DNA from: a virus
Strand: one strand, 5' to 3'
DNA length: 28,373 nt
Virus record (IMG/VR): IMGVR_UViG_3300025127_000193
Coordinates: 1-28,373 of that record
Position 1 is the stretch's first letter; each line of letters begins with the position of its first letter. This document shows positions 19,102 to 28,373 of this stretch, piece by piece. The notes under the pieces were generated by a model. That model ran no database searches. It saw nothing but the letters and a program-made list of their open reading frames with translations, and was not told the origin of the DNA. The position numbers and the translations under genes were made by a program.

Positions 19102-19554
19102 GTGGCTGATTCTGTTCTTCGTAATTCAAATGGTCAATTTACATCTGAGCGAGCACGCAAAGATGGGAGAGTATGTGGAAAAAGACAACCTGATGCAGTT
19201 ATAGAAGCTAGAAGGCAAAAATTGTACTCAAGGCAGTTAACAGGTAAAACTACAAGACAACTTGTACTGGAGCACGCATCCAGGGAACAAATTGGCGTTG
19301 AAACTGCATGGAGTGATTGGAGAAAGGTCAAGGAATGGAACGATGAAGATTGGGAAAAGGATAGAGAAAAAATGATCTCACGACTCCAGGGGATGAGAAT
19401 GAGGCTTTTTGAACAGGCAGTGAGGAAGGGCCAGTTGCAAACGGCTGCTCAGATACTAGATTCTCTTGGTAAAGTAGTAGGGGAAAGTGTAGAGAACATC
19501 AATTTAAACACTCCACAGCTATCAATTTCAGTAGAACCTAAGAAAAATAGTTGA
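19102..19554 (+). CDS. terS: Terminase small subunit candidate (TerS)
   Basis: 150 residues from GTG 19102; an in-frame TAG at 19096-19098 fixes the start. The middle part, about residues 40-85, has a DNA-binding look (LYSRQLTGKTTRQLVLEHASREQIGVETAWSDWRKVKEWNDEDW), then a basic helix EKMISRLQGMRMRLFEQAVRKGQLQTAAQILDSLGKVVGE, which suits an oligomerising helical region. These features and the place beside TerL suggest TerS, which recognises the packaging site. The gene is transcribed away from TerL, which is uncommon. Alternatives are a transcription factor or other DNA-binding protein. Confidence 0.62.
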   Translation: MADSVLRNSNGQFTSERARKDGRVCGKRQPDAVIEARRQKLYSRQLTGKTTRQLVLEHASREQIGVETAWSDWRKVKEWNDEDWEKDREKMISRLQGMRMRLFEQAVRKGQLQTAAQILDSLGKVVGESVENINLNTPQLSISVEPKKNS

Positions 19555-19995: not shown

Positions 19996-20322
19996 TTAAT
20001 TGATTTCTAATTTACTAGGTTTGTAAAAACTCTCATATTCTTCTTTTTTTAGTTTGATAGAAATTTGATTCTTTAAATTTTTATACTGAAAAAAACTTCT
20101 CATAGTTGTAGAAAATGAGATCACGTCTCTGTATTTCATACAGCAATTAATTTCTGATGTTCTGGAATCATCAGTAAATATTGTGTATCCAGTATCAGAT
20201 CTTTGAATTACTAAATTTGTTCCGATAGTTTCATTTAATCTAGCGATTTCATATTCTAGATAATTTTTTGAAGCAATAGGCATGGTTTTAAATTTGGGTG
20301 ATTTACTCCCTAATTTTAACAT
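19996..20322 (-). CDS. Hypothetical protein (108 residues)
   Basis: ATG at 20322; a second ATG at residue 14 (20283) is possible, because a TTGCTA hexamer followed by TTAAAA suggests the promoter may lie over the first codons. Basic N-terminus; a central alternation of strands (LVIQRSDTGYTIFTD, then INCCMKYRDVISFSTTMRSFFQYKNLKNQISIKLKKEEYESFY). No known family comes to mind. It precedes the membrane-peptide gene by 35 nt and shares its terminator. Confidence 0.6.
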   Translation of the reverse strand: MLKLGSKSPKFKTMPIASKNYLEYEIARLNETIGTNLVIQRSDTGYTIFTDDSRTSEINCCMKYRDVISFSTTMRSFFQYKNLKNQISIKLKKEEYESFYKPSKLEIN

Positions 20323-20593
20323 ATTTTTCTACTAGATAGCAACACTAAAATATCACAATAATCAGCACTAAAAAACCAAAAAATTCTATCAATTCTCTGT
20401 AATCTCACAGAATAAGACTTTAAACCCTTTGATATAACTAGAGAATCTCAAACGTAAGAATCCTATAATTTTAAAAGTTAACCTATGCAATAGCACATTA
20501 ACAGATCTAAAATCATTCAATTCTTAAACATTAAAAAAGCTAGACTCGAATAAGAATCTAGCTATATTTTTTTAGTTCCTGATCTAATTTAAT
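20323..20593. terminator. 270-nt noncoding gap holding a bidirectional terminator (20533-20570)
   Basis: AGCTAGA (20538-20544) pairs with TCTAGCT (20557-20563). Seven Ts follow on the plus strand (20567-20573) and six on the minus strand (20538-20533). It ends the 20594-20956 message. The remaining AT-rich DNA (20323-20530) shows no gene; TAGATAGCAAC at 20334-20344 (minus strand GTTGCTATCTA) recurs at the promoter of the DUF932-like gene. Confidence 0.8.
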
Positions 20594-20956
20594 TTATTCT
20601 TCCTGATCCAATAAATATTTACAGTAATCCTTGTCAATTCCATTTCCTGATTTTATTGTTTCTTTCATATGTTTTGTAAATCTTTCTGTTTTTTCAATTT
20701 CCTTTTCTAAATTTTTGATATACATTTTATAATCTTCTATCTGTTTTTTCATTTTAAAAATATTTATATCCTGAGATTCTAAGAATTTAAAATCCCCAGT
20801 ATCATATCTTTCTAAATCTGAATGGGTACAAATAAGGTTATCATCTTCTTGAATGATTTTTCCCTGATTCCTTAGATCATAATATTCTGAGAGAACATCA
20901 TCAACAATTTTGAATGTTTTTTCTGCTTGTCTTTTGTAAGTTTGGTAAGTTGCCAT
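20594..20956 (-). CDS. Hypothetical charged coiled-coil protein (120 residues)
   Basis: ATG at 20956; AT-rich region with no clear Shine-Dalgarno. A long stretch of heptad-like charged residues (FKMKKQIEDYKMYIKNLEKEIEKTERFTKHMKETIK, about residues 67-100) predicts a coiled coil. It ends 30 nt before a bidirectional terminator. Not recognised. Its partner genes (159 residues upstream) do not reveal its function. Confidence 0.6.
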   Translation of the reverse strand: MATYQTYKRQAEKTFKIVDDVLSEYYDLRNQGKIIQEDDNLICTHSDLERYDTGDFKFLESQDINIFKMKKQIEDYKMYIKNLEKEIEKTERFTKHMKETIKSGNGIDKDYCKYLLDQEE

Positions 20957-20992
20957 AATAATTAATTGAATGAATTTTAATAAGTGAATGTT

Positions 20993-21472
20993 TTAAGAAT
21001 GTTTTTCAATCCATTCTCTAGTAGGTTGAAATCTATCGTTAGCTGATAATTCATGCCCAAGTGCGAATAATCTATTAATTGATTTTTGATCTTTATTAGA
21101 TCTAGCATGATTCAAACATTCATTTATAGCTTTAGAAACTGATCTTTTATAATTTCTCATCTGTTCCTGATACTCTAATTGTTTCTTATAATCATCTAGT
21201 GATAGTTGATGATTTCCCTTAACATCTAAATGTTTTGGTTTCTCTGGTAGAAAATAATCAAATATCCAATATTCATAATCTAATACAACAGACTTAAAAA
21301 CATCAGAACATTCTTTTAATGTATGTTCGTGAATACTTGGACAATCCATAACTTCACAGTTGTAAGGCCATTCTAAATAAATCCAATAATCTAAAGTATC
21401 GTTGTATTCTTGATGGATACTTGAAACCCTTGGATCATTTTGAAAATCTTTTAATGTTCTTGGATTTTTCAT
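20993..21472 (-). CDS. Hypothetical protein (159 residues)
   Basis: ATG at 21472, 20-30 nt after a promoter of the TTGACT-18-TACAAT type. The N-terminal half contains TLKDFQNDPRV and DYWIYLEWPYNCEVMDCPSIHEHTLKECSDVFKSVVLDYE, and a basic helix follows (KSINRLFALGHEL). Cysteine and histidine residues at about 39, 44, 48 and 55 could bind metal, but the spacing is not a recognised finger. No family identified. First gene of a two-gene transcript with the coiled-coil protein. Confidence 0.6.
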   Translation of the reverse strand: MKNPRTLKDFQNDPRVSSIHQEYNDTLDYWIYLEWPYNCEVMDCPSIHEHTLKECSDVFKSVVLDYEYWIFDYFLPEKPKHLDVKGNHQLSLDDYKKQLEYQEQMRNYKRSVSKAINECLNHARSNKDQKSINRLFALGHELSANDRFQPTREWIEKHS

Positions 21473-21500
21473 AGTAATAAAGATGGTTAACTACTCTTCT

Positions 21501-21530
21501 ATTGTAGTATCTAACAAATAAAAAAGTCAA
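21501..21530 (-). promoter_or_regulatory. Promoter TTGACT-18-TACAAT of the 21472 gene
   Basis: The -35 is at 21530-21525 and the -10 at 21506-21501 on the minus strand; the expected start is near 21494, 22 nt before the ATG. The -10 lies in TACTACAATA, a box also found at the SSB promoter (26360-26369). Confidence 0.7.
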
Positions 21531-21560
21531 ATAATATATTGATATAATTACATTTTTTAA

Positions 21561-21576
21561 AGGTATAAACATACCT
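21561..21576. promoter_or_regulatory. 16-nt palindrome, candidate operator or activator site
   Basis: AGGTAT-AAAC-ATACCT is perfect in its 6-nt arms. It lies about 31 nt upstream of the -35 box of the 21501-21530 promoter, in a noncoding gap (21473-21675). It might bind a dimeric regulator. No second copy was noticed. Confidence 0.4.
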
Positions 21577-21624
21577 AAAGGATCATTAAATTATTACAAT
21601 CTCACTTAGACTCATTGAGACTTA

Positions 21625-21657
21625 ATAAAAAATCCTGACGTTTTTAGCATCAGGATT
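21625..21657 (-). terminator. Rho-independent terminator of the DUF932-like operon
   Basis: On the minus strand AATCCTGA / TCAGGATT (21650-21657 and 21631-21638 in plus coordinates) with an 11-nt loop is followed by a run of six Ts. It sits 19 nt past the stop of the 21676-21963 gene. Confidence 0.85.
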
Positions 21658-21675
21658 AATAAATTTTAATTTCTG

Positions 21676-21963
21676 TTAGACAGTTTCTAATTTTTCAATA
21701 CTGGTAAATGAGCATGCCATATTAGACATTGCTAATGAGAGAAAATTTGAATCAGGACGATAATAAAAATAATACTTACATGAATGTCTACAAACCGATC
21801 CATCTTTATTAAGTTGATGTAATGTTAATTTCTCAACATTGTACTTTTTTGAATGGGATCTTCTACCAACTGAAAGTAATTTTTCACGTTTACCGATTAG
21901 GGCATCTGTGAGAGATACCCTTATTAAATCGTTATTTTTAAGTGTTTTGAATGTTTCTATCAT
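21676..21963 (-). CDS. Hypothetical protein (95 residues)
   Basis: I choose the ATG at 21963 because AAGGAG lies 10 nt upstream (right after the stop of the DUF932-like gene, TAAGGAG). An earlier ATG at 22002 would overlap that gene by 25 nt without a Shine-Dalgarno. The protein starts IETFKTLKNNDLIRVSLTDALIGKREKLLSVGRRSHSKKY and ends with CSFTSIEKLETV; three cysteines and several histidines (CRHSCKYYF around residues 58-66) stand out. Not recognised. It is co-transcribed with the DUF932-like gene and closed by a terminator. Confidence 0.68.
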   Translation of the reverse strand: MIETFKTLKNNDLIRVSLTDALIGKREKLLSVGRRSHSKKYNVEKLTLHQLNKDGSVCRHSCKYYFYYRPDSNFLSLAMSNMACSFTSIEKLETV

Positions 21964-21977
21964 TTTGAATAATCTCC

Positions 21978-23045
21978 TTAAACTGTAGTTAGTCTTAAAC
22001 ATTCTTTTCTGGCTTTTTGTATTCTCTCAGCACATCTACCCCTTATAAGACTTTCAAAACGTATTCTTGCTGATTCGGTAGAATCTATCCTACTTGACTC
22101 TGAATGAGTCTCATATTCGGTTATAGCGTTAAATGCATTAAACAGATTAGGTTGATTCCCATTAGCTTCGATTTTAAAGTTTCTTTTTACATCGACCCAT
22201 TCTTTATTAATATCTTTAAATTCTTTATTTCTTTTTTCTTTAGTATCTTTATCTGTTATCTGACCGATTAACTTATCTTGGAAGCTATGCAAGAATAAAT
22301 CCTTTAATAATTCATCACTGCATTTAGTATTCTTCATTGCTTTAAATTCTTCAATAGAATTTGCTAGATCAGCACGTTGAAATTTCAACCACGCTGGTAG
22401 ATTCTGAAGATACTGGTTAACACCTTTTGAATGTTTGAACACCATCTTATTTTTAGAATTTTGTATAGATCCCATCTGATTGAAGCACCATAGTCTTACA
22501 TCTGATTGAATAACTTTAAAGCTATACGATCCATCCATTGAGTTAACAAAAATCATTCTTCGGCGGATAGCATCTCCAGTAGAAACTTCCATATCAGAAT
22601 TTTTTATTGCACATATAATGAATACTCTTGCAGTGTTATTCATTGGGATAATATGCTCTACTTCTAAAAAATTTAAGTTTGGTTGGATAGCATCCAAAAT
22701 AACATCATGCTTTACTAACTCATAAGTGTTAGATACTGTAGATAAGACTTTCCCTAACCTATTAGAAAAAACTGCTTTAGTATTAGGACACTCATAAGAA
22801 ACATCATCTACTTTTGTAAATGTTGGTTTAAGTTCGGGATCATTCAAAACATTAGTTTTAAATAAAATAGTCTCTAAATCATCATTCTTATTAAATGCTG
22901 TAGAGATTTGATCTTCATTCCCTTTACGTTGATAACCTAGATTCGTTCTAGTGAAGTTTTCGTTTCGATAGTGACTATCCACTCTTAAATCTGTTTCTGT
23001 AAATGAAACAAGAGAATCAATTTTGTTTGAGTTGTAATTTTTCAT
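21978..23045 (-). CDS. DUF932-like protein (phage/plasmid family)
   Basis: 355 residues, ATG at 23045. The central section (about 97-200) matches the DUF932 pattern: GKVLSTVSNTYELVKHDVILDAIQPNL, then a strand region ending MEVSTGDAIRRRMIFVNSMDGSYSFKV and ..VRLWCFNQM. Family members often show v...Y..v.n.e....., Gd..... and N.hDGs elements, with RI.C.N. later. Their role in phages and plasmids is not known. It is driven by its own promoter and ends 15 nt before the next gene. The C-terminal part is helical and charged. Confidence in family is fair; function is open. Confidence 0.75.
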   Translation of the reverse strand: MKNYNSNKIDSLVSFTETDLRVDSHYRNENFTRTNLGYQRKGNEDQISTAFNKNDDLETILFKTNVLNDPELKPTFTKVDDVSYECPNTKAVFSNRLGKVLSTVSNTYELVKHDVILDAIQPNLNFLEVEHIIPMNNTARVFIICAIKNSDMEVSTGDAIRRRMIFVNSMDGSYSFKVIQSDVRLWCFNQMGSIQNSKNKMVFKHSKGVNQYLQNLPAWLKFQRADLANSIEEFKAMKNTKCSDELLKDLFLHSFQDKLIGQITDKDTKEKRNKEFKDINKEWVDVKRNFKIEANGNQPNLFNAFNAITEYETHSESSRIDSTESARIRFESLIRGRCAERIQKARKECLRLTTV

Positions 23046-23075
23046 GGGTGTTGTAAAAATTAGATTACATTTAAA

Positions 23076-23104
23076 ATACTACATTAATCTGTATTAGATA
23101 GCAA
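23076..23104 (-). promoter_or_regulatory. Promoter of the DUF932-like operon
   Basis: Minus strand TTGCTA (23104-23099), 17 nt, TAGTAT (23081-23076); transcription start near 23069, 24 nt before the ATG. It lies immediately after the stop of the 62-residue gene. Confidence 0.65.
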
Positions 23105-23105
23105 C

Positions 23106-23294
23106 CTATTTTTTCATTTCTATATTAATTAATATTTTATCAATTAATCTATCTGCTCTATAACATAGATTCTCAGAAAATTGATTATTATAATTATTTG
23201 ATATTTTTTGAAGAATAATTAAAATAAAAAATAAATCCTGTATAGGTATAGAAACATGACTATGCCTAAAAAATTTATGAATGTGGGAGGACAT
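23106..23294 (-). CDS. Possible small protein (62 residues)
   Basis: ATG at 23294, stop just before the DUF932 promoter. Begins SSHIHKFFRHSHVSIPIQDLFFILIILQKI, with a short hydrophobic stretch (LFFILIIL) that could be membrane-associated, then NNYNNQFSENLCYRADRLIDKILI. Low complexity and AT-rich; no Shine-Dalgarno. The neat fit between the control region and the next promoter speaks for it. I do not recognise it. Confidence 0.42.
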   Translation of the reverse strand: MSSHIHKFFRHSHVSIPIQDLFFILIILQKISNNYNNQFSENLCYRADRLIDKILINIEMKK

Positions 23295-23413
23295 AATGAA
23301 TGAAAAATAATGAATGAACGATCCAACATTACCTAGTCAGCTATGAATGTCAAATTCTGAGAATTATCACTGAGAATAATGAATGAGAATTTTAATAAGT
23401 TGCATTATGAATG
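23277..23413 (+). repeat. Repeat-rich control region: ATGAATG repeats and 13-nt iterons
   Basis: ATGAATG occurs at 23277, 23296, 23310, 23343, 23379 and 23407. ATAATGAATGAA is repeated exactly at 23293 and 23307 and with one change at 23376. TGAGAAT begins at 23358, 23371 and 23384, exactly 13 nt apart, giving three 13-nt direct units. GAATTTTAATAAGT at 23387-23400 recurs at 20972-20985. The region lies between the 62-residue minus gene and the plus operon promoter. It could bind a repressor or initiator protein; it is not identified. Confidence 0.65.
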
Positions 23414-23428
23414 GAACTAAAGTAATAT
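23400..23428 (+). promoter_or_regulatory. Promoter of the short plus-strand operon
   Basis: TTGCAT (23400-23405), 17 nt, TAATAT (23423-23428); transcript start near 23435, 20 nt before the ATG at 23455. The last iteron adjoins the -35 box. The shared 17-mer with the 19551 promoter is at 23416-23432. Confidence 0.65.
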
Positions 23429-23454
23429 TGTAAGGCACATTAACCACCCTAATT

Positions 23455-23673
23455 ATGGCTGTCGATCCATTAGATCAAAGTAGTGATAGACATTTAACTG
23501 TCACTATGAATGAAATTAAAATCTTAGTCGGTATGATGACTAAGTTGAAAGAACTGTTCCCGATTGAAGGGCATTACTATGTTCATAAAGCTTGCAACAT
23601 CTTTATTAACATATGCAGAAAACAGTTGTCTGAAGAAGATTTAGAAGAATTAAGGGAGAGATATGGAATATAA
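23455..23673 (+). CDS. Small early protein (72 residues)
   Basis: ATG at 23455, first gene after the control region. Sequence AVDPLDQSSDRHLTVTMNEIKILVGMMTKLKELFPIEGHYYV begins with a short polar part, then predicted helices; the C-terminus RKQLSEEDLEELRERYG is highly charged. Overlaps the next gene by 11 nt, with a good Shine-Dalgarno (AGGGAGAG) just before that start. Not recognised. Expected to be expressed early with the five following genes. Confidence 0.7.
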   Translation: MAVDPLDQSSDRHLTVTMNEIKILVGMMTKLKELFPIEGHYYVHKACNIFINICRKQLSEEDLEELRERYGI

Positions 23674-23857
23674 ACAGATGCACCCAGAATTTCCGTTAGA
23701 TAGTGCGTGGAACGATCCAGATAAAAGACATGATTTTATTGGACAAGTTTCTGATCTAGCTTTTGGTGATGATACTATCCAACGTGGTTTCACTATGGAA
23801 GAAGTTATTGCCAGATTAAAACTTTACTGCCAATTATCTATTGATGAGTATGACTAA
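23663..23857 (+). CDS. Small early protein (64 residues)
   Basis: ATG at 23663 preceded by AGGGAGAG. Sequence EYKQMHPEFPLDSAWNDPDKRHDFIGQVSDLAFGDDTIQRGFTMEEVIARLKLYC is mostly helical and acidic, without a known motif. Its stop (TAA 23855-23857) overlaps the possible starts of the next gene. Unrecognised. Confidence 0.7.
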   Translation: MEYKQMHPEFPLDSAWNDPDKRHDFIGQVSDLAFGDDTIQRGFTMEEVIARLKLYCQLSIDEYD

Positions 23858-24197
23858 AGAAGAAGCTGAAAACTTTATCTATAAATGTCTGGTAGATAAC
23901 GAAGAAAAAACCGATCCAAAGGATAAATTAACTCGTTTGGATATTTGTGATATATTGCACACTGATTTTCAAATTCCTAAGTCTACGGCATATAGATACT
24001 ATAAGGACTCCTTTAATCTTTATAAATGGGAGCAGGCTAAACCCGATCCAGATAAAAAGATTAAAGATAATAAAGATGCCATACTAGATAGTGTGTTAGA
24101 CGAAGCTGAAAGTTTATTAGCTGAAGGCAGGTCTACAGAATATTTTAAAGGTATCGAACTATATTCAAGATTACTAAAGAGGTTTAACAAAGTATGA
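23850..24197 (+). CDS. Putative HTH DNA-binding protein (115 residues)
   Basis: I choose ATG 23850, which overlaps the previous stop by 8 nt; ATG 23844 and TTG 23841 are possible. The segment at about residues 30-55, LDICDILHTDFQIPKSTAYRYYKDSFNLYKWEQ, reads as a helix-turn-helix with SIPKSTAYRYY-like recognition helix. The C-terminal half is charged and helical (DSVLDEAESLLAEGRSTEYFKGIELYSRLLKRF). It may regulate this operon or bind the iterons upstream; this is inference. ATGA overlap with the next gene at 24194. Confidence 0.65.
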   Translation: MTKEEAENFIYKCLVDNEEKTDPKDKLTRLDICDILHTDFQIPKSTAYRYYKDSFNLYKWEQAKPDPDKKIKDNKDAILDSVLDEAESLLAEGRSTEYFKGIELYSRLLKRFNKV

Positions 24198-24343
24198 TTT
24201 TACACGGTACACCGTGCGATTCATTTATGCACGAACATCAATCTGCGTTGGATAGCCAGCGTGAAGATGATGCGATCCAATATCTACAGGATACTGGGGT
24301 TTACCCCGATACTGATGATAGGGAGGAAGAAAATTATGAGTAA
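24194..24343 (+). CDS. Small early protein (49 residues)
   Basis: ATG 24194 overlaps the previous stop (ATGA); TAA 24341-24343. Sequence ILHGTPCDSFMHEHQSALDSQREDDAIQYLQDTG, then acidic (DTDDREEENYE). The last codons overlap the Shine-Dalgarno and start of the next gene. Not recognised. Acidic small early proteins can bind host factors, but nothing shows that here. Confidence 0.65.
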   Translation: MILHGTPCDSFMHEHQSALDSQREDDAIQYLQDTGVYPDTDDREEENYE

Positions 24344-24494
24344 CCAGCAAAACACTGAACTTCTTGAAAATTTATTTGAAGAAGAGAAAGCATCCCTAAT
24401 TAAAAAAGGGATGCACTTAATTTTTTCTACTGAAGAAATTGAAAATTGTGCTGCTAAGATAGCACGTTCCAAGTTTGAGGATTTATTGCAATGA
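24336..24494 (+). CDS. Small early protein (52 residues)
   Basis: ATG 24336, with AGGGAGG 10 nt upstream, is clearly better than an upstream ATG at 24261 that would run through the previous gene. Sequence SNQQNTELLENLFEEEKASLIKKGMHLIFSTEEIENCAAKIARSKFEDLL is helical, alternating charged and hydrophobic. No motif recognised. ATGA overlap with the following gene. Confidence 0.65.
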   Translation: MSNQQNTELLENLFEEEKASLIKKGMHLIFSTEEIENCAAKIARSKFEDLLQ

Positions 24495-24712
24495 TTAAAA
24501 AAGTTTTAGTAACTCTGTTAGTTACAGTGGACACTGAAGACGAAGAAATTTGTCCTACTGGCGATCCACTATCTGAGAATGTTGTTATCAACGCACTAGA
24601 TGACGGGTTCTTTACTGATCCTGTAGAAGAAATTATTACCTCGCATTTATCAGATTACGTTGACCATACAAAACGCGTTCAAATGAGAATAGACGATTTA
24701 TACAACGGCTAA
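24491..24712 (+). CDS. Small acidic protein (73 residues)
   Basis: ATG 24491 overlaps the preceding TGA (ATGA). Sequence begins IKKVLVTLLVTVDTEDEEICPTGDPLSENVVINAL, a strand-rich start, followed by acidic helices (VEEIITSHLSDYVDHTKRVQMRIDDLY). It converges with the nuclease gene and overlaps its 3-prime end by 15 nt. Not recognised. Confidence 0.65.
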   Translation: MIKKVLVTLLVTVDTEDEEICPTGDPLSENVVINALDDGFFTDPVEEIITSHLSDYVDHTKRVQMRIDDLYNG

Positions 24713-25540
24713 TTCTTTAAGGTTTTTGTGGTAGCGATCCACTCTATCTAAAAATATACTCTCTGATCCTCGCAATTCTAAATTGTTGAGGATTTTTATT
24801 TGAGGTTTTCCGCTTCTGCGAGCTACCACAACTGCACCGTATTTTGGTTTTATGCCTGTGAGATGCTGTAGACCTAGACTATACGCTCCAAGTTGATGAC
24901 AGAATTGTTCGATCATATCATCAGACCTTACTTCTTTAGCTGTTTTCCAGTCAACTATGAATGGCCCGTCTCCATCAATATCTAATAGAGCGTCTGCTGT
25001 ACCAGCAAATCCGTAGCCTGGTTTGTACACGGAGAACTCAACTGCATGAATGGCCGTTACACGATCCAGTATGAATGATCGTAAACCTCTGGCGTAGCCT
25101 GACGCACTCCAGCTAACACGCGGTGCGGATTCAACTGCTTTTTGTAGACCCCATTGAGTGACTTTTTTCGGACAGCGTTCCAGTCCATCCGATCCAGTCC
25201 TCCATAGGCCTCTTTTGTTTGAGTTTTGCCTTGCAAATTTTGCTGCAAGTTTGAGAATAAATTCTGCGTGACTGTGTGCGAGCTTGCCTCTTTCGCAAGC
25301 AATATCACGCTCCACAATAGAATCGGACCTTTTAAGCCAATTTTCAAGGGCATCTTTTGTATGTTGGGGTGCGGTTTCTTTTAATATGTGTGTAACTGAG
25401 TGATATATGTTGTCTTCATCATCGCGGTAGACTCTGTACGGTCCACTATTATCTTGAATTAGGTTCCATGTTCTGAGTGATGCTAGGGCATTTTGTTTGT
25501 CTAGCGTTCCCATGAATGGATAATAAATACACGTTCCCAT
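24698..25540 (-). CDS. PD-(D/E)XK exonuclease, RecB/Cas4-like
   Basis: 280 residues. The nuclease pattern is complete: an early ACERGKLAHSHAE (His89, Glu93), VEF (Glu168), the catalytic GFAGTADALLDIDGDGPFIVDWKTAK with Asp183, Asp197 and Lys199 (D-x-K), and HQLGAY with Gln216 and Tyr220. Such nucleases process DNA ends for recombination, replication or packaging. The start is uncertain: ATG at 25540 and another at 25513, both beginning ATGGGAACG, a curious duplication. It lies next to SSB, consistent with a recombination module, and converges on the plus-strand operon (15-nt overlap). Confidence 0.88.
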   Translation of the reverse strand: MGTCIYYPFMGTLDKQNALASLRTWNLIQDNSGPYRVYRDDEDNIYHSVTHILKETAPQHTKDALENWLKRSDSIVERDIACERGKLAHSHAEFILKLAAKFARQNSNKRGLWRTGSDGLERCPKKVTQWGLQKAVESAPRVSWSASGYARGLRSFILDRVTAIHAVEFSVYKPGYGFAGTADALLDIDGDGPFIVDWKTAKEVRSDDMIEQFCHQLGAYSLGLQHLTGIKPKYGAVVVARRSGKPQIKILNNLELRGSESIFLDRVDRYHKNLKELAVV

Positions 25541-25554
25541 AATTAATATACAGC

Positions 25555-25584
25555 AAAATAAAAGAGAGTCAAGGTAGACTCCCT
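25555..25584 (-). terminator. Rho-independent terminator after the 43-residue gene
   Basis: The minus strand folds as AGGGAGUC (25584-25577) with GACUCUCU (25570-25563), loop UACCUU, with one G-U pair, followed by TTTATTTT. It ends the SSB message and separates it from the nuclease. Confidence 0.75.
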
Positions 25585-25588
25585 GTGT

Positions 25589-25720
25589 TTAAAAGATATG
25601 GGTGCATAACTGCTGTACCTTATTACACGCAGATTTGTTCCACCTTACGATGTCACCGCCTTCACAGAATAAATACAGATCGCACTGTTGATCAGGCAGA
25701 CTCTCCGTAACTGCACCCAT
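25589..25720 (-). CDS. Possible 43-residue cysteine-rich protein
   Basis: ATG at 25720-25718, TAA at 25591-25589. The translation begins MGAVTESLPDQQCDLYLFCEGGDIVRWNK and ends CNKVQQLCTHIF; four cysteines in 43 residues. It starts 9 nt after the SSB stop and 6 nt before the terminator stem. The start region ATGGGTGCA is the reverse complement of TGCACCCAT at its own 3-prime end, so the mRNA could fold with the start codon blocked. No Shine-Dalgarno is evident. Real gene plausible but not certain. Confidence 0.5.
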   Translation of the reverse strand: MGAVTESLPDQQCDLYLFCEGGDIVRWNKSACNKVQQLCTHIF

Positions 25721-25729
25721 GAATGGGGA

Positions 25730-26323
25730 TTATTCTTCTTCTTTAAAGGGATTACCACCTTTAAGAAGTCGTTCGAGATCGAACTCTTTTTCTGCTTCCC
25801 ATGCTTCATCTACAGCTTTAGCCATAGCTTTTTTCAGTGGGGCAGCTTGCACAGTGTACTTTGTATCTGTACCTTGTCCTTCACGAGATAAGTAGAAGTC
25901 ACATTCAGTCATATCTTCGTAATCTTCTAACTGACTGATTACGTCAAACTGTTGAGTGATTGTTTTTTGGGTCCAAGAAAATACCTGTACACGTTCCAAG
26001 TCGTAGTTATATACGGGAACTGCGTGAGCTATCTTGCAAGGCTCGTTAATCTTGCCATCTCTGGAAAGTGATCTAACGTAGTCATCACCAAGTTTTTCTG
26101 TTATATCCTCTGCGGTAGGATCTTCAGCAAAACGGAATGGCTTACGTCTTTCTGGATCGTTAACTTCGTTACCCCATAGTTCGTAGAACATGAAAGGCTC
26201 TTCAGCTAACAATTTGAAACGAACTTTTTGTCCGCTTTTGATACTTGATGGATTCAAGTAATCGTCTTTTGTGCTACTTGAAGATGCAGCATCTTCTCTA
26301 GCAAGTGTTGAAATGAAAGGCAT
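25730..26323 (-). CDS. Single-stranded DNA-binding protein
   Basis: 197 residues, ATG at 26323, 30 nt from the start site of a strong promoter. The central part matches phage-type SSBs with an OB core: SIKSGQKVRFKLLAEEPFMFYELWG, then a HAVPVYNYDLERVQVFSWTQKTITQQ strand section and TECDFYLSREGQGTDTKYTV. The C-terminus is acidic (GGNPFKEEE), the usual partner-binding tail. It coats single strands at replication forks and recruits the replication or recombination proteins; the neighbouring primase-helicase and nuclease fit. No Shine-Dalgarno is evident. Confidence 0.85.
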   Translation of the reverse strand: MPFISTLAREDAASSSSTKDDYLNPSSIKSGQKVRFKLLAEEPFMFYELWGNEVNDPERRKPFRFAEDPTAEDITEKLGDDYVRSLSRDGKINEPCKIAHAVPVYNYDLERVQVFSWTQKTITQQFDVISQLEDYEDMTECDFYLSREGQGTDTKYTVQAAPLKKAMAKAVDEAWEAEKEFDLERLLKGGNPFKEEE

Positions 26324-26360
26324 AATGCGTGTTGGCTATGAAAGCCTGAGTTGCATTACT

Positions 26361-26389
26361 ATTGTAGTACATAGACAAATCATTGTCAA
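26361..26389 (-). promoter_or_regulatory. Near-consensus promoter of SSB
   Basis: Minus strand TTGACA (26389-26384), 17 nt, TACAAT (26366-26361). The -10 is in the box TACTACAATA. It is interleaved with the opposite promoter at 26372-26400. Transcript start near 26354. Confidence 0.85.
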
Positions 26390-26400
26390 TGATATATAAT
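26372..26400 (+). promoter_or_regulatory. Promoter of the primase-helicase gene
   Basis: TAGACA (26372-26377), 17 nt, TATAAT (26395-26400). The transcript would begin near 26407, at the foot of a hairpin. Its -35 lies between the -10 and -35 of the SSB promoter, so the two cannot be used at once. Confidence 0.7.
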
Positions 26401-26404
26401 AAGA

Positions 26405-26436
26405 AAACCCTAAAGGGTGGAGTTCCTTCAGGGTTT
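26405..26436 (+). other. Hairpin at the 5-prime end of the primase-helicase message
   Basis: AAACCCTAAAGG (26405-26416) pairs with CCTTCAGGGTTT (26425-26436) with a single A-C mismatch and an 8-nt loop. No T-run follows on the plus strand. On the minus strand the mismatch becomes G-U and TTTTCTT follows, so it could terminate antisense RNA. Confidence 0.55.
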
Positions 26437-26468
26437 CAACATATAGTCTACAGTAGGTATTGTAACAC

Positions 26469-28373
26469 ATGAGTAACATAAATTTCATCCCCGAAATTCC
26501 ATTGACATGGTTGACTTGTCCAATATATGCCGAGGGTGTATTACTGCCAAAAAGAAACGAATCGAGTCCAGATAGATACTCTGATGGGAAAGTTCCCTTT
26601 GGTAGAGCGTGGAAAGAAGAACTTACAGTAAATGACTCTGCTCTGATGATTGAGAGAGAGCCTGAAAAGTTCAAAGCTATCGGTGTATTCACAGGTCAGA
26701 AATCAGACGGTCTTGTGATATTTGACGTAGATAGGAACTTGGGTGTTATTGAAAAGAAATGGGGTAAAGATCTCAAGAAAGCACCAAAAGTTACATCACT
26801 TAGAAAAAATGCTGCTAAGTTCCTTTTCAAAGTTCCACAGGATCTTGTAACTGAAGTTGCTTCTATCTCACAGACTGCTGCTGGACAGGAAGGTTGGGAA
26901 GTTTTATGGGGAGGACAGGGTGTAATAGCTGGTGAATACCATAAAAAAGGAGTTGGTAAAGGCAAATATAAATTAGAAGGTGATCTGTTCGATGTGCCAG
27001 TTGCTCCAGAATGGCTGCTGTCTCGCATGAAAGATCAATACAAAAAGAATAATCAAGATGTCGATATTAAATACGTTGATAACAGGTGGAGTAAACGTAC
27101 CAAAGAAGAAAGAATCGCTATCGTTAGTGGTTGCTTAAGTGTTATCGGACACAAAGGACCTAACCAAGAACATTACTGGTGGGAAATAGGTGCGATGATA
27201 AACAACGAGCTACCAGGGATTGAAGGTTTAGAACTCTGGAGAGAATGGTCTAAGAAAGATCCTGACTATGAACATTGTTGGGAAGATGGTGAAGATCCTT
27301 GTGCTGCTAGATGGTATGCAACTTGGAGAAATGATGGGGCTAGGTACAATATGGCTCATCTTATAGATTTAGCAGATAGGGTCGATCCAGATAGAAAAAG
27401 ATTTAGACAGGTTGGTTTAGACAAACTTATAGATGAAGTGATGGCTATACCGCTTAGATATAAAGAAGAAGTGTTAGATGGTGAGGATCTTATTCAGAAA
27501 TACATGGATATTGACAATGATCCTAAGAATGAGAACCCTGCACTACATAACCAAGCGGTCCATAAATTAGCTATTGAAGCTAAACGTGGTAATGCTGCTG
27601 AGATTGAAAGATTGGTTGATACTCACGAAATGTTCAATAGAACTAAGGGTCAGAAACCTTTAGCTATTGATGAGCTAGACGATACACCTTTTGAATACCT
27701 GATTCCAGGATTGCTACCTAAACCTTGGACTCTGCTAGTTCATGCAGATGGCGGTACAGGAAAGACTGCTATGTGTCAGACAGTAGCTAAACATATTGGA
27801 CATGGAAAAGCGTTTAATGTTTATGGTGCTTTAGTTAACGTGCCAGTGGGTAAGGTGCTTTGGTTGAATGGAGATCAGAACGAGAGGATATTGCGTAGGC
27901 AGATGAAACTTATCGGATGCGATAAGAATGTTCGGGTAGTTACTGAGTGGGATATGCAGTGGTATAGCAGATTTAAAAAAATGCAGAATAAATATGCTTA
28001 CGATCTAGTGGTTATTGATAGTTTGGATGGTTGTAATGACAGCAACCCATACGAAGAAAATAGAAGAGAGTATGCGTTACCTATCAAGAAACTTGTTAGA
28101 CGAAATGGACAGGATTTTCCTGCTTGTTCGATAATTATTATTCATCACAACACCAAGGAAGGAAAGTTTAGAGGAACTACTGCGATTAAAAATGCGGTGG
28201 ATGAAACTTGGAATATGAAGAAGTTGTCAATGAATGATGCTGCTGAGATGGGTCTTACAGCAAATAGCAGATTAGTTAGCGTTGAGAAGTCCAGAGAGGA
28301 TCGTGAAGGGCTTCGGATGATATTTACCCTACTACCTGATTACACATACTCTATAAGCCCTGCACCAGATCGT
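26469..28373 (+). CDS. Primase-polymerase/helicase, C-terminus cut by the window edge
   Basis: 635 codons open from ATG 26469 to the window edge. Residues 1-180 resemble a bifunctional primase-polymerase: FDVDRN (Asp86, Asp88) is the metal-binding DxD, followed by a TSLRKNAAKFLFKVP strand and EVLWGGQGVIAGEY. Residues 213-303 look like a PriCT_2-type domain. From about 400 there is an AAA-type helicase with Walker A HADGGTGKT (Lys432, Thr433), Walker B YDLVVIDSLDG (Asp517) and HH at 559-560. The protein would prime and unwind DNA during phage replication. It is the only replicative enzyme in the window and is read divergently from SSB. Confidence 0.9.
   Translation, partial: MSNINFIPEIPLTWLTCPIYAEGVLLPKRNESSPDRYSDGKVPFGRAWKEELTVNDSALMIEREPEKFKAIGVFTGQKSDGLVIFDVDRNLGVIEKKWGKDLKKAPKVTSLRKNAAKFLFKVPQDLVTEVASISQTAAGQEGWEVLWGGQGVIAGEYHKKGVGKGKYKLEGDLFDVPVAPEWLLSRMKDQYKKNNQDVDIKYVDNRWSKRTKEERIAIVSGCLSVIGHKGPNQEHYWWEIGAMINNELPGIEGLELWREWSKKDPDYEHCWEDGEDPCAARWYATWRNDGARYNMAHLIDLADRVDPDRKRFRQVGLDKLIDEVMAIPLRYKEEVLDGEDLIQKYMDIDNDPKNENPALHNQAVHKLAIEAKRGNAAEIERLVDTHEMFNRTKGQKPLAIDELDDTPFEYLIPGLLPKPWTLLVHADGGTGKTAMCQTVAKHIGHGKAFNVYGALVNVPVGKVLWLNGDQNERILRRQMKLIGCDKNVRVVTEWDMQWYSRFKKMQNKYAYDLVVIDSLDGCNDSNPYEENRREYALPIKKLVRRNGQDFPACSIIIIHHNTKEGKFRGTTAIKNAVDETWNMKKLSMNDAAEMGLTANSRLVSVEKSREDREGLRMIFTLLPDYTYSISPAPDR

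Follow-up and report, generated by a model that had tools for sequence, protein, structure and literature searches.

The window analysed here is the whole stretch of DNA, 28,373 nt in length, of a 28.4 kb virus record. Within it, a short repeat-rich control region separates a minus-strand gene, which lies upstream of a DUF932 gene, from a plus-strand operon of small genes. An exonuclease gene and a primase-helicase gene follow. The features discussed below are these:

23106–23294, minus strand: divergent gene of 62 aa, upstream of the DUF932 gene, recognised by conservation at the protein level
23277–23413, plus strand: six ATGAATG words, whose number and place differ by clade
23319–25445, plus strand: field of CGNWCCA / CGNTCCA heptamers, between the array and the exonuclease gene's 5' end
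23319, 23463, 23713, 23912, 24044, 24273, 24562, 24735, 25062 and 25190, plus strand: CGATCCA
24884, 25176, 25308 and 25439, plus strand: one-letter variants of CGATCCA
23348–23353, minus strand: TTGACA (reverse complement of TGTCAA), abutting palindrome 1 and conserved in the clade of the window
23353–23365, no strand: palindrome 1, AATTCT-G-AGAATT, containing the first TGAGAAT (23358–23364)
23363–23377, no strand: palindrome 2, ATTATCA-C-TGAGAAT (7-1-7), interlocked with palindrome 1
23384–23390, plus strand: third TGAGAAT, the unit nearest the plus promoter
23400–23428, plus strand: promoter-like pair, TTGCAT (23400–23405), 17-nt spacer, TAATAT (23423–23428), recognised by conservation
23455–24712, plus strand: operon of small genes (72, 64, 115, 52 and 73 aa), whose make-up differs between relatives
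23850–24197, plus strand: p115, a predicted helix-turn-helix (HTH) protein of 115 aa and candidate array-binding regulator, from sequence pattern and helix layout
24698–25540, minus strand: PD-(D/E)XK exonuclease gene, with the densest antisense heptamers
24957, 25046, 25071 and 25512: ATGAATG in the exonuclease gene
26472–28373: primase-helicase gene (PriCT_2-like and AAA_25), running past the end of the window

The open reading frame at 23106–23294 looks like a real gene, with 726, 432 and 232 changes on codon positions 3, 1 and 2, respectively, among 44 distinct relatives. Because it behaves as a gene, the non-coding interval shrinks to 23295–23454. The preliminary description had placed all repeats between a minus gene and the plus operon promoter, but the ATGAATG at 23277 lies inside the minus gene, and the copy at 23296 stands just ahead of its start codon. 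Before the DUF932 gene, a promoter-like TTGCTA-N17-TAGTAT at 23081–23109 on the minus strand appears conserved when the alignment is inspected.

The phages of this group are uncultured and marine, and probably cyanobacterial. A nucleotide search with positions 20–28 kb of the window against 50,697 phage records found nothing, and a scan of genome contigs with the window's primase as query returned no relatives. The window's terminase reaches at most about 43% identity to those of cultured phages, among them cyanophage S-2L and pelagiphages. Closer terminases occur in a SAR202 bin (96% identical) and in a Prochlorococcus single-cell genome (80% identical); the second of these lies on a contig of 41 kb and has 81% identity by a second search. 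The host is presumed to be a picocyanobacterium. An Rfam search of 20000–28373 yielded two sub-threshold matches and none above the curated gathering score. By inspection, the tail genes and small genes are present twice, with strain differences, in the 51 kb contig of one relative (G001). This repetition suggests a genome of about 38 kb, around which the contig seems to wrap.

The repeats first recorded in the control region are all where the preliminary description had put them: TGAGAAT at 23358, 23371 and 23384, with a constant step of 13 nt; ATAATGAATGA at 23293, 23307 and 23376; and six ATGAATG words within 137 nt, at 23277, 23296, 23310, 23343, 23379 and 23407. Among 5000 dinucleotide shuffles of 23277–23454, an equally spaced 7-mer triplet arose in 1, an 11-mer present three times in 3, and a 7-mer present at least six times in 6; elsewhere in the window, no stretch of 178 nt holds such an equally spaced triplet. 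The clustering of repeats is beyond chance. It is therefore very hard to credit that they have no function beyond coding or base composition and arose by chance or drift. AT-rich sequence does favour repeats, and some ATGAATG words lie in genes, but the shuffles, the codon shuffles given below and the fixed spacing across divergent clades argue against this explanation, which the conserved spacing already contradicts.

Among relatives taken from IMG/VR, the conserved core proved to be the TGAGAAT array and not the ATGAATG words. Its most conserved element, AAATTCTSAGAATTMTYASTGAKAATWA, consists of two interlocked palindromes followed by the third TGAGAAT. These palindromes, AATTCT-S-AGAATT and ATTATCA-S-TGAKAAT, are centred at 23359 and 23370, 11 bp apart, and the second TGAGAAT (23371–23377), which forms part of palindrome 2, is TGATAAT in other clades. 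Conservation of the spacing in relatives, whose absence was named earlier as a ground for refutation, was found: of 38 non-redundant arrays, 37 keep the 13-nt spacing between units 1 and 2, and units 2 and 3 are separated by 13 (n=22) or 14 nt (n=13). The centres of the palindromes vary mainly between G and C (for palindrome 1, G in 23, C in 13 and A in 2 non-redundant arrays) while their arms are constant, as expected of dyad recognition. Each of the seven genomes scanned contains the array once.

A Fur/Zur-type transcription factor of the host could use these palindromes as its operator, which would tie the phage operon to the metal state of the host. In some clades palindrome 2 contains TGATAAT/ATTATCA, the heptamer of Fur-type boxes, and the Prochlorococcus single-cell genome with the related phage contig has a Fur-family gene pair. 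However, the arms diverge (ATTATCA-N-TGATAAT), unlike the usual order of TGATAAT-N-ATTATCA, so that no converging 7-1-7 box was found, and the lone exact match to the core in that single-cell genome falls inside a coding frame. Fur-type 7-1-7 boxes, such as the cyanobacterial Zur box NTNANAATGATNATCATTNTNAN (PMC9337993), share with the array the heptamer TGATAAT/TGAGAAT and overlapping palindromes, but the Zur box differs in sequence, and the array departs from such boxes in its opposite arm polarity, its different offset and its phage-specific distribution. Control by a host factor of this kind is improbable.

Immediately downstream of the array, TTGCAT-N17-TAATATTGTA is conserved: the hexamers and the 17-nt spacing are kept, and the spacer sequence varies. 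Other clades carry TTTACA or TTGATA, N17 and TATAAT at the same place, and an 11/12 match to the consensus occurs there in 4 of 30 non-redundant relatives, compared with 0.3% of shuffles. Because the pair in the window matches the consensus at only 7 of 12 positions, its status as a promoter rests on this conservation and on the better-matching relatives, which suggest that 23400–23428 is a working plus promoter. A consensus promoter scan of the window did not single out the pair, and the number of hits was not above that in shuffles. On the minus strand, TTGACA at 23348–23353 is a possible -35 element of a divergent promoter; no good -10 was found for it, and it is absent from other clades.

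Among 2.9 million viral contigs scanned, 78 carry the array pattern. In 67 of these, p115 lies 341–1571 nt downstream on the same strand, and the other 11 end no more than 517 nt after the array; every array is thus followed by p115 wherever the contig is long enough. The genes between the array and p115 differ among clades, and p115 is the sole protein of the plus operon present in all seven genomes. Its model comprises five predicted helices (pLDDT 89) with a helix-turn-helix at residues 29–51, whose invariant residues are R29, P43, T46, Y48, R49 and Y50; this motif suggests that p115 binds DNA. The protein has no Pfam, PHROG or fold match, fold searches against the PDB and BFVD giving nothing at E ≤ 0.001, and a weak fold match to 4xvn was discarded (rmsd 12.6). 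Its identification as the terminase small subunit was also rejected, as a separate candidate at 19102–19554 adjoins terL. The strict linkage to the array, the invariant HTH core and the confident five-helix model make p115 the leading candidate and most likely ligand of the array, as the first reading of the sequence had guessed.

The control region is probably, with modest confidence, an operator/promoter site bound by an HTH protein that the phage itself encodes, p115 being the likeliest. Repeated and palindromic sites with conserved spacing were found next to a probable promoter, in one copy per genome and linked to p115. Of the two possibilities first proposed, an iteron origin or a multi-site operator, the operator is the one that these observations sustain, and positive evidence for the origin was not found. 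A gene switch is more likely than a replication origin because compact sites of a protein-binding type precede an operon that always carries p115. In this model, p115 dimers would bind the interlocked palindromes at 23353–23377 and cooperatively occupy the third unit (TGAGAAT at 23384), immediately ahead of the plus promoter at 23400–23428. Binding would set the transcription of the plus operon, which codes for p115 itself, and the divergent minus genes (the 62-aa gene and DUF932) would probably also come under its control. Since the array lies upstream of the -35 and not over the -10, activation or a two-way switch would be as likely as repression.

Early divergent promoter-operator regions, such as phage lambda OR, combine tandem dyad-type sites by divergent promoters with a linked gene for a phage DNA-binding protein. 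The array likewise has tandem dyad-type sites beside one or more promoters and a linked gene for a candidate DNA-binding protein, but its palindromes are interlocked, with centres 11 bp apart and 13-nt units upstream of the -35, and p115 belongs to no known repressor family. Several points speak against the operator model. As p115 matches no known regulator family or fold, its HTH assignment comes from a sequence pattern and the helix layout, and the operon promoter alone might account for the linkage of p115 to the array, whose ligand would then be a different protein. In addition, the second unit is degenerate in the G005-type clade, and many contigs of a sister clade retain just one TGAGAAT, adjoining the promoter; the 7/12 match of the window promoter and the scan count given above also weigh against the model. 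Operator arrays as such are known; the novelty here is that the candidate regulator linked to the array belongs to none of the known families. A control site shared by a widespread group of uncultured marine phages, with picocyanobacteria as their probable hosts, is thereby defined together with its candidate regulator, and both are small enough for direct testing.

At an iteron-type replication origin, an initiator would bind the TGAGAAT and/or ATGAATG repeats and load the replisome, as in iteron plasmids and phage P4. The initiator might be, for example, the primase-helicase, through a winged-helix-like C-terminus, or p115; that C-terminus, past the end of the window, is a probable winged helix, and the AlphaFold model of the primase-helicase (pLDDT 56) is too poor to classify. 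Tandem direct repeats at fixed spacing, an AT-rich setting (GC about 0.28–0.29 around the site) and a one-strand heptamer field beginning at the array agree with an origin, as does the proximity, within 3 kb, of genes for an exonuclease, SSB and the primase-helicase. However, the TGAGAAT array is conserved and the ATGAATG array, the most iteron-like part, is not: several clades with the TGAGAAT array have few or no copies of ATGAATG in the control region, and there are none in two of the related genomes (G004 and G005). The array also sits against a promoter, and GC skew, suggested earlier as a check, tracks gene strand with no unique switch at the control region. An origin at this site is unlikely. 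Phage P4 alpha is an iteron origin with a primase-helicase initiator. In the pRN1 replicon, a small DNA-binding repressor is paired with a primase-polymerase (PMC4234260). The window resembles these systems, as far as sequence goes, in its tandem repeats near a primase-helicase gene, but the unconserved number of ATGAATG words and the abutting promoter set it apart.

The array is also the point at which the heptamer field begins. No 7-mer is more over-represented in the seven related genomes than CGATCCA (133 copies against 10.8 expected, with 37 on the other strand). On the plus strand, CGNWCCA rises from about 1 to 4–5 per kb exactly at the array and holds this level as far as the exonuclease gene, however far that gene lies from the array (56 distinct distances, 2.1–4.3 kb). 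Within the exonuclease gene, where the words run antisense, it climbs to 5–12 per kb, and it drops to 0.4 per kb beyond the 5' end of that gene; the other strand has about 0.1 per kb through most of the field. Compared with codon shuffles, the exonuclease gene contains 7 heptamers against 0.7 expected and 4 ATGAATG words against 0.7, and the plus genes hold 6 heptamers against 1.9 expected. The plus-strand enrichment of CGNWCCA exceeds codon constraint. ATGAATG preferentially starts 9 nt after CGATCCA. The plus-strand heptamers were noted over 21796–25190 of the window, with the field itself at 23319–25445. Of 37 distinct relatives, 35, 37 and 32 retain the antisense ATGAATG words at 24957, 25046 and 25071 in the exonuclease gene, respectively, and most of the codons that these words cover have no or low synonymous variation.

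Tentatively, and with low probability, the array may mark the start of a one-strand field that consists either of oriented DNA signals (for priming, recombination or directional loading) or of signals in a long plus transcript running antisense through the exonuclease gene. To our knowledge, no dispersed, directional phage signal of this kind has been described, and the field is the part of the system most likely to be new. In phage NrS-1, recognition by the primase is sequence-specific, involving TTTGGTTA and GTG sites (PMC8718748). This offers an analogue, in which a phage replication enzyme reads short one-strand words, but the window's primase is linked to CGNWCCA by analogy only, and T7 primase words, used as a control, form no comparable strand field. 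Because of this negative control, and because a sister clade with a 33–37% identical primase retains the field, a role of CGNWCCA as a primase site is only possible. A host Chi-like role of CGATCCA is not favoured, since there is no enrichment in the Prochlorococcus single-cell phage contig, which has the 81% identical terminase and no close match to the window's primase. The signal is strong, and it could reveal how replication starts in these phages or how they use antisense transcription.

In the window and six related genomes, palindromic hexamers are very strongly avoided (CAGCTG, for instance, occurs 5 times against 121 expected), which is perhaps a form of restriction avoidance.
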